From a virus: DNA of 54,409 nt. The translations under genes were made by a program, and so were the position numbers. Shown piece by piece: positions 10,937 to 42,458 of this stretch. Below the pieces are notes generated by a model that saw only the letters and a program-made list of their open reading frames with translations, ran no database searches and had not been told where the DNA came from. The stretch lies in the IMG/VR virus record IMGVR_UViG_3300023109_001408, positions 1-54,409 of that record. One strand, 5' to 3'. Numbering within the stretch: the stretch's first letter is position 1; every line of letters begins with the position of its first letter.

Positions 10937-11785
10937 ATGGCACGAGAAGATTTTGAATTTGAATTCACCGAAGAGATGGTGATTGAGATGCTTCGTGGGA
11001 ACGAAGAAGCAGAGGATTGGTATGACGCAATGTGCGAAATACTTCCGCTGTGGGAAATGAATACTCCGGAGCGTGTAGCAATGTTTATTGCACAGTGCGG
11101 GCATGAATCAAACAACTTTAAAGTACTAAGTGAAAACTTAAACTACAGTGCTAAAGCACTTGATGCTTTATTTGGCAAATATTTTAAGAGAGCAGGCAGA
11201 GATGCGCAAGAATATCATAGACAACCTAGAAAAATCGCAAACGTTATTTACGCTTCACGTATGGACAACGGCGACACTGATAGCGGTGACGGCTGGCGTT
11301 TTCGCGGTGGTGGCATACTTCAGTTAACTGGACGTTATAACTATACCGAATTTGCAAAAGAATTAGAAATGTCCCCAGAAGAAGCAGTAGACTATGTACG
11401 CACTAAAAAAGGCGCACTAGACTCAGCATGTTGGTTCTGGGATACAAACGGCTTAAACAAGTATTGCGATGCAAGAGATGTTAAAGGCGCTACAAAGCGT
11501 ATTAACGGTGGTTACATTGGTTTGGAAGATCGTGAGAAGCATTACAAACACGCAATGGAAGTATTAGGTGGACATTGGTCACCAAGTAAAATGGTATACG
11601 AAACTATTCGTGTAGGGTCAAGAGGACCAACAGTTAGAGCAGTACAAGAAGAATTAGAAATTGGTGCAGATGGAATCTTTGGCAGAGGTACTGAAGCACA
11701 TATTAAAGCATGGCAAGAGGAAAACGGACTAACAGCAGATGGAATTATGGGTCCAAAGAGTCTTGCACTAATGTTCGGAGACTAA
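10937..11785 (+). CDS. Endolysin: GH19 chitinase-like domain plus peptidoglycan-binding domain
   Basis: A 282-residue two-domain lysin. Residues about 40-205 match glycoside hydrolase family 19: MFIAQCGHESNNFKVLSENL carries the likely catalytic glutamate (GHES), followed by RFRGGGILQLTGRYNY and ACWFWDTNGLN. Residues about 215-282 are a PG_binding_1 domain (VGSRGPTVRAVQEEL, then GADGIFGRGTEAHIKAWQ, then DGIMGPKSLALM). Phage GH19 enzymes act as N-acetylmuramoyl hydrolases. There is no signal peptide, so export needs a holin. It heads a lysis region with spanins directly downstream. Confidence 0.88.
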   Translation: MAREDFEFEFTEEMVIEMLRGNEEAEDWYDAMCEILPLWEMNTPERVAMFIAQCGHESNNFKVLSENLNYSAKALDALFGKYFKRAGRDAQEYHRQPRKIANVIYASRMDNGDTDSGDGWRFRGGGILQLTGRYNYTEFAKELEMSPEEAVDYVRTKKGALDSACWFWDTNGLNKYCDARDVKGATKRINGGYIGLEDREKHYKHAMEVLGGHWSPSKMVYETIRVGSRGPTVRAVQEELEIGADGIFGRGTEAHIKAWQEENGLTADGIMGPKSLALMFGD

Positions 11786-11789
11786 AATT

Positions 11790-12272
11790 ATGAAACTGTC
11801 AGGAATACTTTTAATTGTTATAATGACTATGGGAGGTCTAGGATATTGGTACTATACTGATACTCAAAAGACTATTGCCGTATTAACTGAAAACAATGCA
11901 AAACTAAACGTGGCAGTTGAAACAAACGAAGCTACTATAACTGCAATAACAGCAGATTTTAAAAAAGCAAACGAAGAAATTACTAGAGTAAATGCTGAAT
12001 TTGCTGCCACAAGACAACAAAATAATATATTAGCAGATAAACTTGCAAAACACGACTTAGAGCTATTAGCGTCTCAAAGGCCTGATTCAATTGAAAGATT
12101 AATTAACGGTGGATCAGCAGCAGCAGGACGATGTTTTGAATTATTATCTGGTTCACCACTAACGGAGAAAGAGAAAAATGCAAAGAATGAAAAGGCCTTT
12201 AATAATGAGTGTCCTTGGCTTTATGACACTTATAAGTCTCGCGGCTTGCTCAACGACACCACAACGGATTGA
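11790..12272 (+). CDS. Inner-membrane spanin-like protein (Rz-like)
   Basis: A 160-residue protein with one N-terminal membrane helix (residues about 4-22, SGILLIVIMTMGGLGYWYY), then a long coiled-coil periplasmic segment (about residues 26-100, heptads around AVLTENNAKLNVAVETNEA), and a compact tail with two cysteines. This is the i-spanin layout. It follows the endolysin by four bases and the next gene, a lipoprotein, starts inside its 3' end, as in Rz/Rz1 pairs. With the o-spanin it should fuse inner and outer membranes after wall degradation. Confidence 0.75.
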   Translation: MKLSGILLIVIMTMGGLGYWYYTDTQKTIAVLTENNAKLNVAVETNEATITAITADFKKANEEITRVNAEFAATRQQNNILADKLAKHDLELLASQRPDSIERLINGGSAAAGRCFELLSGSPLTEKEKNAKNEKAFNNECPWLYDTYKSRGLLNDTTTD

Positions 12273-12644: not shown

Positions 12645-12652
12645 GATAAATA
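12645..12652 (+). promoter_or_regulatory. T4-late-type promoter box before the 12675 gene
   Basis: GATAAATA ends 22 bases before the ATG at 12675. By T4 geometry (start about six bases after the box) transcription would begin near 12658, inside the 5' arm of the hairpin at 12653-12678. Late transcripts would therefore lose most of that arm. Confidence 0.5.
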
Positions 12653-12678
12653 CCATAGTAACAAAAGGATTACTATGG
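12653..12678 (+). promoter_or_regulatory. Hairpin sequestering the ribosome site and start codon of the 12675 gene
   Basis: CCATAGTAA (12653-12661) and TTACTATGG (12670-12678) form a perfect 9-bp stem. The 8-base loop CAAAAGGA holds the Shine-Dalgarno, and the ATG (12675-12677) lies in the 3' arm. In read-through RNA from upstream genes the start would be masked. The late-type box at 12645 would start RNA within the 5' arm, releasing the start. T4 uses this arrangement for genes such as e and soc. Confidence 0.6.
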
Positions 12679-12959: not shown

Positions 12960-13365
12960 AATAATGGGCGCAGGAGGCGTAGGGCTTGAATTAGCAGAAA
13001 TGGCAACACCATTTATAGCAGCACTATTTGCATTAGTTGTAACACTAATGTTCAAAGACTATGCAACAAAAATTGCAAAGGGTATGGCATTTAAAATGAA
13101 CCCTGCTTTTAAAGAAGGTGACAAAGTTATACTAGACGGTGAAAGAGCTCTTATTGTAAAAATAGGAAATACTGAAACAGTATTTGGAATACACAAAGCT
13201 AGTGGAGAATTTAAAGGCGATTATATTTGGCGATATGTACCAAATGAAAGAATACCTGCACTAAAGATTGAAAAGATTATCTTCGATGCAACACCAGAAA
13301 CAAACGAGAAAAAGATAGAACAAAATGGGCATAAGATTGACACACTTATCAAGGAGGGAAAGTAA
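12949..13365 (+). CDS. MscS-like minimal channel protein in the lysis region
   Basis: A 138-residue protein. Residues about 15-35 form one hydrophobic helix (MATPFIAALFALVVTLMF), continuing into an amphipathic helix (KDYATKIAKGMAFKMNPAF). Then comes a small beta domain with FKEGDKVILDGERALIVKIG, a T-E-T-V turn and YVPNERI at about residues 96-102. This order (pore helix, then F-x-x-GD-x-V, G-x-V-x-x-I and PN) is the signature of the MscS TM3 plus beta domain. Canonical MscS has three membrane helices; here only the pore-lining one remains. It may form a ring in the inner membrane with a holin-like or osmotic role; that is inference. GGAG eight bases upstream supports the start. Confidence 0.6.
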   Translation: MESEIMGAGGVGLELAEMATPFIAALFALVVTLMFKDYATKIAKGMAFKMNPAFKEGDKVILDGERALIVKIGNTETVFGIHKASGEFKGDYIWRYVPNERIPALKIEKIIFDATPETNEKKIEQNGHKIDTLIKEGK

Positions 13366-13799
13366 TGCCAAGAAAGAAGCCATCAGAATTAAAAACAGAA
13401 CCAGCAGCGGCGCCGGAACCAGCAGCAGCACCTGCTCCAGTAGCAGCACCTGAAATTGAATATAACAGACCAACTATGACTATTGATAGTACTGTTATGG
13501 AAAGTGCAGATTTAAATGGTGACGGACACATTTCCAAAAAAGAAATGGAAATGCATTTAGAATTCAAACGCAAAGAACTTGAAGATGCAGATGCTATGCG
13601 TGATGCACAGCGTAATATGACTTGGTTTGCACTATTTGGACTACTATTGTATCCATTTGCAGTTGTAGGAGCAAGTTTTGTAGGGCTTACAGAAGCAGCA
13701 AAAGTACTAGGGTCAATGGCGCCGACATATTTTGTTGCTGTTGCTGGTATTGTTGCAGCGTTCTTTGGTGCGCAAGCATATAAAGGAAAAGGCAAGTAA
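13365..13799 (+). CDS. Membrane protein with EF-hand loop (holin candidate)
   Basis: A 144-residue protein in three parts: a Pro/Ala-rich N-terminus (about residues 1-28), one canonical EF-hand loop (DLNGDGHISKKE, about residues 46-57) with all Ca-binding positions filled, and two membrane helices (about residues 84-108 and 114-135) near the C-terminus ending in KGKGK. Two helices with a short loop and basic tail fit a class II holin. The calcium-binding loop is followed by a charged helix. It follows the MscS-like gene with one-base overlap and an AGGAGGG ribosome site. Calcium-triggered lysis is an attractive idea but unproven. Confidence 0.6.
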   Translation: MPRKKPSELKTEPAAAPEPAAAPAPVAAPEIEYNRPTMTIDSTVMESADLNGDGHISKKEMEMHLEFKRKELEDADAMRDAQRNMTWFALFGLLLYPFAVVGASFVGLTEAAKVLGSMAPTYFVAVAGIVAAFFGAQAYKGKGK

Positions 13800-13815
13800 T
13801 CATTACTGCTAATTT

Positions 13816-13854
13816 GTAATAGTCCGTACGATAAGTAATTGTATGGACTATTAC
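13816..13854 (+). promoter_or_regulatory. Long hairpin covering the dnaJ-like start codon
   Basis: GTAATAGTCCGTAC (13816-13829) pairs with GTATGGACTATTAC (13841-13854): 13 Watson-Crick pairs and one G-U, with an 11-base loop. The ATG (13843-13845) lies in the 3' arm and no strong Shine-Dalgarno is exposed. The loop includes GATAAGTA, but that box is only six bases from the ATG, so a late-promoter escape is unlikely here. It could be a translational repressor or RNA thermometer for a chaperone gene. Confidence 0.6.
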
Positions 13855-14679
13855 TCTATTCTAGGTATACCTAGAAACGCATCTCCAGAACAAATTAAGA
13901 AAGCATACAAGAAGGCAAGTATGCAGCATCATCCTGACAGGGGTGGGAATCAAGACGAATTTGTTAAAGTTCAGCAAGCATATGAAATATTAAGCAACAG
14001 TGATAAACGCAGCGCCTATGATAATCCACATCCACAAGGGTTTGGTCCCAATGGATTTCAAGGCACGGGCGGATTTGAAGAAGCAATGCGTCAAGCAAAT
14101 GCACAATACGGCAATATGTTTGGTCAAGGATTTGCACAACAGCGTCAAACTCCACGTAATCGAGACATAACTGTACAAGCAGATATAAGCTTAAAAGACG
14201 TAATAACTGGTAAAAATTTAATAATTCAATATCAGCTTCAAACTGGAGAATTAGAAACAGTTACAGTTGATGTGCCTGCAGGCGCAAAACATGGCGATAC
14301 GATACAATATGAAGCATTAGGCGATAAAGGCCACCCTAACTATCCTCGGGGAAATTTAAATGTAAGAATCAAGGTCAGTAAAGATCGTCATTGGCACAGA
14401 GATAATGATAATTTATTTACAAAATCACTCGTAAATATATTTGACTTATTGCTAGGATGTGTTATAATAATTACAACGTTAGACGGAAAAAGGTTAGAAA
14501 TAAAAGTTCCACAAGGCACAAAACCAGGCGCAAAGTTTAGTATTCCAGGCTACGGATTGCCTAGCATGCATACTAGACAAAGAGGCATACTTTTTGTTGA
14601 GATAGAAACAGATATGCCTACAATAACAAATGAACTTGTATTAAACAGAATACAACAACTTAAAAACGATATAAATTAA
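13843..14679 (+). CDS. DnaJ/CbpA-type J-domain cochaperone
   Basis: A 278-residue protein. The J domain covers residues 1-65 (DYYSILGIPRNASPEQIKKAY, then QHHPDRGG with the essential HPD). A short Gly/Phe linker follows, then the DnaJ C-terminal substrate-binding domains (DITVQADISLKDVITGK, VDVPAGAKHGDTI, LDGKRLEIKVPQGTKPG). The zinc-finger domain is absent, as in CbpA (type B). It should recruit host DnaK. T4-like phages usually lack DnaJ; here it is followed by ClpA. A 14-bp hairpin masks the start codon. Confidence 0.88.
   Translation: MDYYSILGIPRNASPEQIKKAYKKASMQHHPDRGGNQDEFVKVQQAYEILSNSDKRSAYDNPHPQGFGPNGFQGTGGFEEAMRQANAQYGNMFGQGFAQQRQTPRNRDITVQADISLKDVITGKNLIIQYQLQTGELETVTVDVPAGAKHGDTIQYEALGDKGHPNYPRGNLNVRIKVSKDRHWHRDNDNLFTKSLVNIFDLLLGCVIIITTLDGKRLEIKVPQGTKPGAKFSIPGYGLPSMHTRQRGILFVEIETDMPTITNELVLNRIQQLKNDIN
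14441..14468 (+). promoter_or_regulatory. Possible internal promoter toward the clpA-like gene
   Basis: Within the dnaJ-like gene, TTGACT (14441-14446), a 16-base spacer and TATAAT (14463-14468) give a near-consensus promoter pointing to the ClpA-type gene 230 bases downstream. Codon constraint could produce it by chance in AT-rich DNA. Confidence 0.3.
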
Positions 14680-16947: not shown

Positions 16948-17626
16948 ATCACGTAAATTGTTCTATTCGGAATACCTTTATAAATTGGTATTCCGGAATG
17001 AACTACATAATATTTTTAGATCAGAATTACAGAAGAAAGAAAAATTAAGTTATGCAAGAGAACAGCTTGATTATCTGACTGAACAATATAGAAATAATGA
17101 GCCATTACTAAAAAAACAATTTCGGTCACATGTTATAATTGATGTAAATGATTATTTAGATGCTATGAGCATATACACTATATTAAAAAATAGCGAAGAA
17201 TATAAATTAAGAATTGATCCTTATTCCTGTATTACACTGTTTTCAAATAACAAAAATTTTCTTTTAAATTTATCATCTAGATTAAAAACTTCGACTGAAT
17301 TTTGGGAGCCTGATCCTAAACATATTGAAACTTTAAAATCTAAAACCAAAATACAGATTGTAGATAATCTTCCTAAATTGCCAATAAAAGTGTGGTTTAA
17401 TAGCACACGTATTAATACAGATTTTGCAACTTGGATACGAGCAAATGAAGACAAGTGCAAGATAGGCAAAATTGCACTAGAAGGCTTAGAAAATTACGGC
17501 TATTTAAATGGTTTGTACATATATCTTAGAGATGAAAAAATACTAAATCTTGTGACATTACTAGCAGGGTCTAGTATTAGAAATGTAGAGAAATTAGTAT
17601 ACAGCGGCGATATTGATAAATATTAG
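16916..17626 (+). CDS. Conserved hypothetical protein
   Basis: A 236-residue basic protein (SRKLFYSEYLYKLVFRNEL near the start; ISCITL-like and KIQIVDNLPKLPIKVW phrases later). No membrane helix, signal or catalytic motif is seen. The start is uncertain: GTG 16916 overlaps clpA by 32 bases without a Shine-Dalgarno; TTG codons at 16934 and 16958 are alternatives. A hairpin at 16968-16995 lies in its first 30 codons. Its product style resembles conserved unknown proteins of marine T4-like phages. Function unknown. Confidence 0.6.
   Translation: MSTSKPLKQFESRKLFYSEYLYKLVFRNELHNIFRSELQKKEKLSYAREQLDYLTEQYRNNEPLLKKQFRSHVIIDVNDYLDAMSIYTILKNSEEYKLRIDPYSCITLFSNNKNFLLNLSSRLKTSTEFWEPDPKHIETLKSKTKIQIVDNLPKLPIKVWFNSTRINTDFATWIRANEDKCKIGKIALEGLENYGYLNGLYIYLRDEKILNLVTLLAGSSIRNVEKLVYSGDIDKY
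16968..16995 (+). other. Hairpin just after the clpA stop
   Basis: CGGAATACC (16968-16976) pairs with GGTATTCCG (16987-16995) as a perfect 9-bp stem with a 10-base AT-rich loop, 21 bases after the clpA stop and inside the next coding region. No U-tract follows. It may slow polymerase, protect the 3' end of a processed message, or simply reflect coding constraint. Confidence 0.35.
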
Positions 17627-17627
17627 T

Positions 17628-17966
17628 ATGGCACAAAGTGAAACAATATTAACAGCACAAACTCACCCAGGGGGCGGTACGACTGAGACTGTAACCGGTG
17701 AGAAGTTTAAGGGCGACGGTTACTACGGACGTAGTGACGGATTGCACAGCGTACAGTACACCTACAGCGTGTTAACAGGTACAATAACTATACAAGGCAC
17801 TCTTGCAGTTACACCTGTAGAAGCAGACTGGTTTGATGTACATACATATACAGCAACAGAAGAAACAGCAAGTAAAATTGCAAGTTTTACTGGCAATTAT
17901 GTATGGATTAGAGCACAAGTAGTGTATACAGACGGTTCTGTTAATTCAGTAACACTAAATCATTAA
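17628..17966 (+). CDS. Small beta-rich protein, probable virion component
   Basis: A 112-residue protein with dense Thr/Tyr/Val beta-strand pattern (MAQSETILTAQTHPGGGTTE at the start; SGTITIQGTLAVTPVEADWF-like and NYVWIRAQVVYTDGSVNSV later). It resembles small immunoglobulin-like or jelly-roll decoration proteins of T4-like virions, but no family is certain. ATG 17628 is chosen, one base after the preceding stop; an in-frame TTG at 17613 is weaker. It opens a run of tightly packed small genes to 25.3 kb. Confidence 0.6.
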   Translation: MAQSETILTAQTHPGGGTTETVTGEKFKGDGYYGRSDGLHSVQYTYSVLTGTITIQGTLAVTPVEADWFDVHTYTATEETASKIASFTGNYVWIRAQVVYTDGSVNSVTLNH

Positions 17967-41282: not shown

Positions 41283-41373
41283 TCAAGTGCAAAAAGAAAA
41301 ACTTGATAAAGCAATGCAAGCACCTATTAACAAAAACTTAGACGAAGAACTAAGACAAAAAGGACTAATATGA
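41266..41373 (+). CDS. Very small charged protein between queE and metK
   Basis: A 35-residue ORF (MHGALDQVQKEKLDKAMQAP and onward, ending NLDEELRQKGLI) that overlaps the queE end by 17 bases and the metK start by four (ATGA). It would form one charged helix. It is short and could be non-functional, but otherwise an 87-base gap separates two tightly coupled genes. A longer reading of this frame inside queE is rejected. Confidence 0.42.
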   Translation: MHGALDQVQKEKLDKAMQAPINKNLDEELRQKGLI

Positions 41374-42458
41374 ATCACATTTTTACAAGCGAATCAGTAA
41401 GTGACGGACACCCAGATAAGGTAGCAGATCAAATATCTGATGCGCTTGTTGATGCTGGATTAGCCGCAGGCGATACAACAACAAGAGTAGCAGTTGAAAC
41501 ACTAGTAACTACCAATATGGTTACTCTAGCAGGAGAAGTTAAGAACTTTAATGTAACTAGAGATGAAGTAGAAAACATTGTTCGAAACAAAGTTAAAGAA
41601 ATTGGCTACGATCAGAATGGATTTTCTTGGCACAAGTTAAAGTTATATAATGAAATACATGAACAAAGTGCAGACATTGCACTAGGTACAGACGACTTTG
41701 GTGCAGGAGATCAAGGACTTATGTTTGGTTATGCTTGCAATCATACCGATAGTATGATGCCTGCACCTATTCATTACAGTCACAAGATACTAGAAAATTT
41801 AAAAGCAAAGCGTGGTAATGTATTAGGTCCTGATGCTAAGAGTCAAGTAAGTGTCGAGTACAATGGCGCAAGACGTGAAGGTGTTATCAAACGTATTGAT
41901 CAAATTGTAGTTAGCACACAGCACACAGAAGGTTGTATAGAAGAAGCAAGACATTTGTGTAAACTTGCAGCAATGGAAGAACTAGGAAACTTAATTGATG
42001 AAAACACTGTATGGCATCTTAATCCTACTGGTAACTTTGTTATTGGTGGTCCTGATGGTGATAGCGGACTTACTGGACGTAAAATTATTGTGGACACTTA
42101 TGGTGGTTTTGCTCCTCATGGTGGCGGTGCGTTTAGTGGCAAAGATCCAACAAAAGTCGACCGAAGTGCAGCCTACATGGCACGATGGCTTGCCAAAAAT
42201 GTAGTAGCAGATGAAATGGCAGACTGGTGTAACATACAACTAAGTTACGCTATTGGTGTTAAGCAACCTACAAGCATTTATGTTGATTCAAATGGACACA
42301 ATCGCAGTATTGAAAAGTTTATTCGAAACGAGATTGATCTAAGTCCAAAAGGAATCATTGACAGATTTGACTTATTCAACTATACTAATTATAGTAACAA
42401 TTGTACTTACGGACACTTTGGTGACAAAGATGTGCCTTGGGAAAGGATAGGATGGTAA
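41370..42458 (+). CDS. metK: S-adenosylmethionine synthetase
   Basis: A 362-residue protein (typical about 380). It begins FTSESVSDGHPDKVADQISD, has GAGDQGLMFGYAC (ATP-binding), GGPDGDSGLTGRKIIVDTYG, and GGGAFSGKDPTKVDRSAAYM (P-loop-like and KDPTKVDRS signature). It makes SAM from methionine and ATP. In this context it can feed QueE and the other radical SAM enzymes, or any methylase. Phage-encoded MetK is uncommon; residues look intact. Confidence 0.93.
   Translation: MNHIFTSESVSDGHPDKVADQISDALVDAGLAAGDTTTRVAVETLVTTNMVTLAGEVKNFNVTRDEVENIVRNKVKEIGYDQNGFSWHKLKLYNEIHEQSADIALGTDDFGAGDQGLMFGYACNHTDSMMPAPIHYSHKILENLKAKRGNVLGPDAKSQVSVEYNGARREGVIKRIDQIVVSTQHTEGCIEEARHLCKLAAMEELGNLIDENTVWHLNPTGNFVIGGPDGDSGLTGRKIIVDTYGGFAPHGGGAFSGKDPTKVDRSAAYMARWLAKNVVADEMADWCNIQLSYAIGVKQPTSIYVDSNGHNRSIEKFIRNEIDLSPKGIIDRFDLFNYTNYSNNCTYGHFGDKDVPWERIGW

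Follow-up and report, generated by a model that had tools for sequence, protein, structure and literature searches.

A conserved hairpin over the start codon of a phage dnaJ gene with a late-promoter-like box in its loop

Why should the start codon of a phage chaperone gene lie buried in a long hairpin? We address this question for a dnaJ-like gene in the window, a virus record of 54,409 bases that is a fragment of an uncultured T4-like phage. The virus is marine, and its DNA polymerase is nearest to those of jumbo T4-like phages of Sinorhizobium and Agrobacterium (45-49% identity). A first-pass annotation of the DNA had described a hairpin at the gene start and proposed an RNA thermometer. 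Its assignment of the downstream reading frame as dnaJ-like is confirmed, as the product is a DnaJ protein (MDYYSILGIPRNAS..HHPDRGG, 278 aa); no close cultured relative of this protein was found. The gene is preceded by a lysis module (endolysin at 10937, spanin-like gene at 12178) and then by small genes, and a gene for a Clp-type ATPase follows. Elsewhere in the window, positions 456-860 encode a GroES-like or head-morphogenesis protein and positions 41370-42458 a protein that, among named matches, is most similar to S-adenosylmethionine synthetases. The features of the locus are listed in Table 1.

Table 1 Features at and upstream of the dnaJ start; positions refer to the window
Feature	Position	Strand	Basis or remark
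Consensus late box GATAAATA ahead of gene 12675; likely source of read-through	12645..12652	+	
Upstream gene, 144 aa; candidate source of read-through RNA	13365..13799	+	Stop at -46 in 38/51 hairpin homologs
Conserved motif TAATCANTACT	13797..13807	+	At -46 to -36 relative to the predicted start; contains the stop codon (TAA) of the upstream gene
Hairpin 5' arm, non-coding, complement of the first dnaJ codons	13816..13832	+	Fold z = -6.4; complement kept in 52/105 homologous starts
Late-promoter-like box GATAAGTA	13830..13837	+	Loop and innermost pairs; 5 nt before ATG; predicted start 13843
Hairpin 3' arm with AUG (13843-13845) and codons 2-4	13838..13854	+	Fold; GAC and TAT codons frozen in hairpin homologs
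dnaJ-like gene, 278 aa, predicted leaderless	13843..14679	+	MDYYSILGIPRNAS..HHPDRGG

The hairpin (13816-13854) has 17 pairs, 15 of them Watson-Crick and 2 G-U, and a 5-nt loop. The stem of 14 bp with 13 Watson-Crick pairs and one G-U that had been reported before is exact for the outer 14 pairs; G-U, A-U and U-A follow as the inner three, which brings the true stem to 17. The AUG at 13843 lies within the 3' arm, and no Shine-Dalgarno sequence was found upstream of it, where the box and its spacer occupy -13 to -1; on both points, the ATG in the 3' arm and the lack of a strong ribosome site, the earlier description stands. Folding of positions 13780-13900 gives -37.7 kcal/mol versus -17.8 (SD 3.1) for shuffled sequences (z = -6.4; 0 of 200 as stable), and the hairpin is the longest and most stable perfect one across the 54-kb window. 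An AUG-covering stem of at least 13 pairs occurs at about 0.1% of 1603 other ORF starts in related contigs. No Rfam family scored above its gathering score for the hairpin, and a search of the open-access literature found no description of such an element at a dnaJ start.

Homologs were collected in two sets. For the first, a profile search based on 16 DnaJ proteins gave 80 loci, with the upstream DNA unconstrained. Their 69 distinct upstream regions comprise 23 with both the hairpin and a late box and 25 that lack the hairpin but have the late box in the same position; most of the remaining regions have a sigma70-like promoter near the ATG. For the second set, the box, the spacing and codons 1-4 were fixed and the 5' arm was left free. 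Of the 105 distinct starts obtained, 52 form the stem and 53 lack it; 43 of the latter belong to clear dnaJ genes. Nearly all members of the stem group form 12-13 of 13 pairs, and the stemless group mostly forms 1-8, like slid registers. Dozens of related viruses have the element, and its 37 bases are near-constant, with DnaJ proteins down to about 35-70% identity with that of the window.

At stem positions 1-11, the non-Watson-Crick combinations are 47 G-U, as read on the mRNA strand, versus 1 C-A and 3 others. Full compensations are found in two homologs (L178 and L250), in which codon 3 is TAC and the 5' arm carries the matching G. Across 25 homologs, mostly found by protein, 94.9% of the cells pair versus 24-52% when the arms are slid. 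The covariation score beats nearly all shuffles (7 of 500 as high), with much of the helix invariant and with p-values on the homologs being only indicative because the rows are related. In the hairpin group, codon choice is frozen at GAC for D2 and at TAT for Y3; the hairpin-less group has mixed codons at both sites. These comparisons support conservation of the dnaJ stem as RNA pairing and not as DNA symmetry. An inverted repeat that spans a promoter could also be an operator, bound by a dimeric regulator of dnaJ transcription, and a further half-palindromic motif lies at -46 to -36. However, the stem changes favour G-U on one strand by 47 to 1; such changes disrupt the symmetry of the DNA and leave RNA pairing intact, and we consider a DNA operator very improbable. 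The conservation, the strand asymmetry of G-U and the frozen codons also speak for the earlier view that the hairpin masks the AUG.

The RNA thermometers ROSE and fourU have a hairpin over the start of a heat-shock-type gene, and the first-pass annotation proposed the same here, namely that warming melts the stem and exposes the AUG. The gene does encode DnaJ, and its AUG does lie inside the stem. The proposal fails on stability, however: the modelled opening of the AUG stays below 0.3% up to 50 °C and below 3% even at 80 °C, and the high stability of the hairpin is kept in homologs from many waters. Unlike ROSE and fourU, the dnaJ hairpin is far too stable, has no Shine-Dalgarno pairing to release and carries a promoter-like box in its loop. 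The stem is predicted to stay closed at all living temperatures, and a thermometer is thus extremely improbable.

The annotation had also seen no usable late promoter between the arms and had concluded that the structure would be present in every transcript. Both statements are contradicted by GATAAGTA, which sits in the loop and the innermost pairs, is conserved and predicts starts without the 5' arm. The box is invariant in all 52 hairpin homologs, being GATAAGTA in 45, GGTAAATA in 7 and GATAAATA in none, and the single G takes one of two positions. Across 165 loci, the spacing between NATAARTA and the ATG of an ORF peaks sharply at 5 nt (83 distinct contexts, which are not independent because most are dnaJ homologs), has no cases at 6-9 nt and shows a second, broad mode near 22-28 nt, which represents ordinary genes. 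The 5-nt peak comes mainly from dnaJ and one other gene family (window 17628).

In T4, late boxes are located at -13 to -6 (PMC1524935), and a box 5 nt before the ATG would therefore place +1 at the A of the AUG. The transcript from the loop box is predicted to be leaderless and to lack the 5' arm; if the true start were a few nucleotides further upstream, part of the 5' arm would be retained. Starts inside the hairpin, which the first-pass annotation had named as refuting its own reading, are what the sequence predicts. In the model, the first 80 nt of an RNA that starts at the AUG fold weakly around it. Hairpin-less dnaJ homologs have the same box at the same spacing, and for others the same start is predicted from TTGACA-N17-TATAAT (spacer of about 17 nt), whose -10 box lies 5-8 nt before the ATG. 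Related contigs contain genes for gp55-type late sigma factors, among them three hairpin-bearing contigs (those of L108, L043 and L069); no gp55 gene was found within the window fragment itself.

A second gene in the window, at 17615-17963, is also predicted to be leaderless, with GATAAATA and 5 nt ahead of the ATG of MAQSETILTAQTHPGG.. Its product has a weak match to a virion structural family, and the same spacing is found in about 25 relatives.

Should the box have no promoter function, the UAAGUANNNGU sequence that precedes the AUG could be a non-Shine-Dalgarno site for the ribosome or a factor on the long RNA, with the hairpin gating access until it is opened by a protein or by DnaJ itself. 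The motif always adjoins the AUG. In all 95 dnaJ cases, moreover, a single G sets the box apart from the usual late box with the consensus ATAAATA, which counts against the promoter reading. On the other hand, the same box family stands 22-28 nt ahead of genes with ordinary leaders in these contigs, and homologs substitute sigma70-type promoters at the matching distance. We regard a ribosome or factor site as unlikely. For the box as a promoter, our guess is that the single G makes it a weak private promoter that needs insulation.

We directly observe the hairpin and its conservation, base pairing as read on the mRNA strand, a box whose spacing is fixed, and late-sigma homologs in related contigs. 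The function that we consider probable for the element is that of a translation insulator with the promoter in its loop, of the T4 gene e kind. Polymerase entering from the upstream late genes, for example from the box at 12645, would make RNA with both arms. In this RNA, the 17-bp hairpin would form and bury the AUG, and translation of dnaJ would be blocked. Polymerase with a gp55-type late sigma factor would also initiate at GATAAGTA inside the hairpin, and the 5' end of this RNA would coincide with the A of the AUG or differ from it by about 1 nt at most. Lacking the 5' arm, such an RNA could not form the hairpin and would be translated as a leaderless mRNA. As only the own-promoter RNA would be translated, the amount and timing of DnaJ would be set by its own promoter alone.

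The upstream gene ends at -46 in 38 of 51 hairpin cases and mostly at -20 to -32 in hairpin-less homologs. In the window, its stop lies 16 nt before the stem, so a ribosome that ends the upstream gene should not open the hairpin. The motif TAATCANTACT is found at a fixed distance ahead of hairpin-type dnaJ starts, is nearly absent elsewhere and is near-palindromic in the window. It was rejected as a general promoter element, as it occurs almost solely before hairpin dnaJ genes. A pairing of TAATCANTACT with the loop, considered by eye, was dropped because the motif bases are the same with both box variants.

A stem between the lysis-side genes and dnaJ might also be an intrinsic terminator or an RNase III processing site. 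The stem is long and intergenic, its tail in the window (TCTATTCT) passes a loose terminator scan, and true terminators occupy this place in some homologs. However, there is no conserved U-tract 3' of the stem, and the stem extends into the coding region with its position tied to the AUG. About 15-17 pairs also make a short stem for RNase III, which counts against processing. Termination or processing is quite improbable as the function of the element.

Other hairpins occur in the window. Immediately 3' of the GATAAATA box upstream, positions 12653-12678 form a hairpin (CCATAGTAA..TTACTATGG) that has the Shine-Dalgarno sequence in its loop and the ATG of gene 12675 in an arm; the layout is similar in three relatives (L004, L089 and L096). 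At 16966-16997, within the reading frame after the Clp gene, an 11-bp hairpin (GGAATACC-TTTATAAATTG-GGTATTCC) holds a TATAAAT box in its loop, and its bases are identical in L002, L004 and L059. A general tendency of late promoters to lie in hairpin loops was rejected, as leadered late boxes are found there no more often than control boxes.

On the DnaJ tree, the hairpin is scattered: at least 5 changes fall on well supported branches, and a single descent is not supported. This scatter, together with the near-constant bases, could be explained by recombination that exchanged the start region or by multiple gains and losses. Different designs are seen in further homologs. In L164, L289 and L290, a 12-pair stem that encloses a sigma70 -10 box covers the AUG; among background starts, about 0.3% have a stem this long, and a fair case can be made for this group as a further AUG hairpin with a sigma70 box. 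The candidates L136 (10 pairs), L332 (9) and L320 (8, counted by eye) lie near the background level and were not accepted. Terminator-like hairpins upstream of dnaJ have a sigma70 -10 box in the loop in L126, L132, L152, L154 and L288 and a -35 box in the loop in L153. Due to the promoter box in the loop, only read-through RNA would form them. The variety of promoter-in-hairpin designs suggests a common need to shield dnaJ from read-through. A convergent 'private promoter' rule, which we offer tentatively and hold to be somewhat short of likely, would be that dnaJ of this broad group of aquatic T4-like phages is leaderless as a rule, with a late or a sigma70 promoter, and has repeatedly gained promoter-holding hairpins that silence or end read-through: stems that mask the AUG and enclose a late box or a sigma70 -10 box (L164, perhaps L136), and terminators whose loop holds a -10 or -35 box.

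A translation insulator at dnaJ would bring T4 lysozyme-type control to a chaperone gene of uncultured phages and combine it with predicted leaderless translation. A single short element would provide the promoter, the transcript start and the start codon and would also lock out read-through, which is a compact means of insulating a gene inside an operon. The arrangement of late box, 5 nt and ATG also provides a sequence rule to find candidate leaderless genes in T4-like phages.

An example of a leaderless phage mRNA is that of lambda cI from PRM. The dnaJ transcript would begin at the AUG as well; unlike cI, it would come from a T4-type late box, and the read-through RNA would be masked. In T4 gene e (lysozyme), and also in I-TevI, read-through RNA folds over the translation start as proposed here (PMC3014915). 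For gene e, experiments showed that the long early RNA is folded and silent, and that the late RNA, which starts inside and lacks the 5' strand, is translated (PMC3014915). In gene e, the late promoter is located inside the sequence for the 5' strand, so that late RNA does not contain this strand; for the putative late promoter of dnaJ, the sequence predicts the same. The hairpin of gene e hides a Shine-Dalgarno sequence, and a short leader remains on the late RNA (boxes at -34 and -21). In contrast, the dnaJ element has no Shine-Dalgarno sequence, holds the AUG itself deep in the stem, is predicted to be leaderless and belongs to a chaperone gene. It shares with gene e the start-covering stem and the putative late promoter that removes the 5' strand, and as it hides no Shine-Dalgarno sequence, it would work like gene e by anatomy without being a plain member of this type. 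Compared with T4, the predicted leaderless start, the control of a chaperone gene and the wide conservation would be new.
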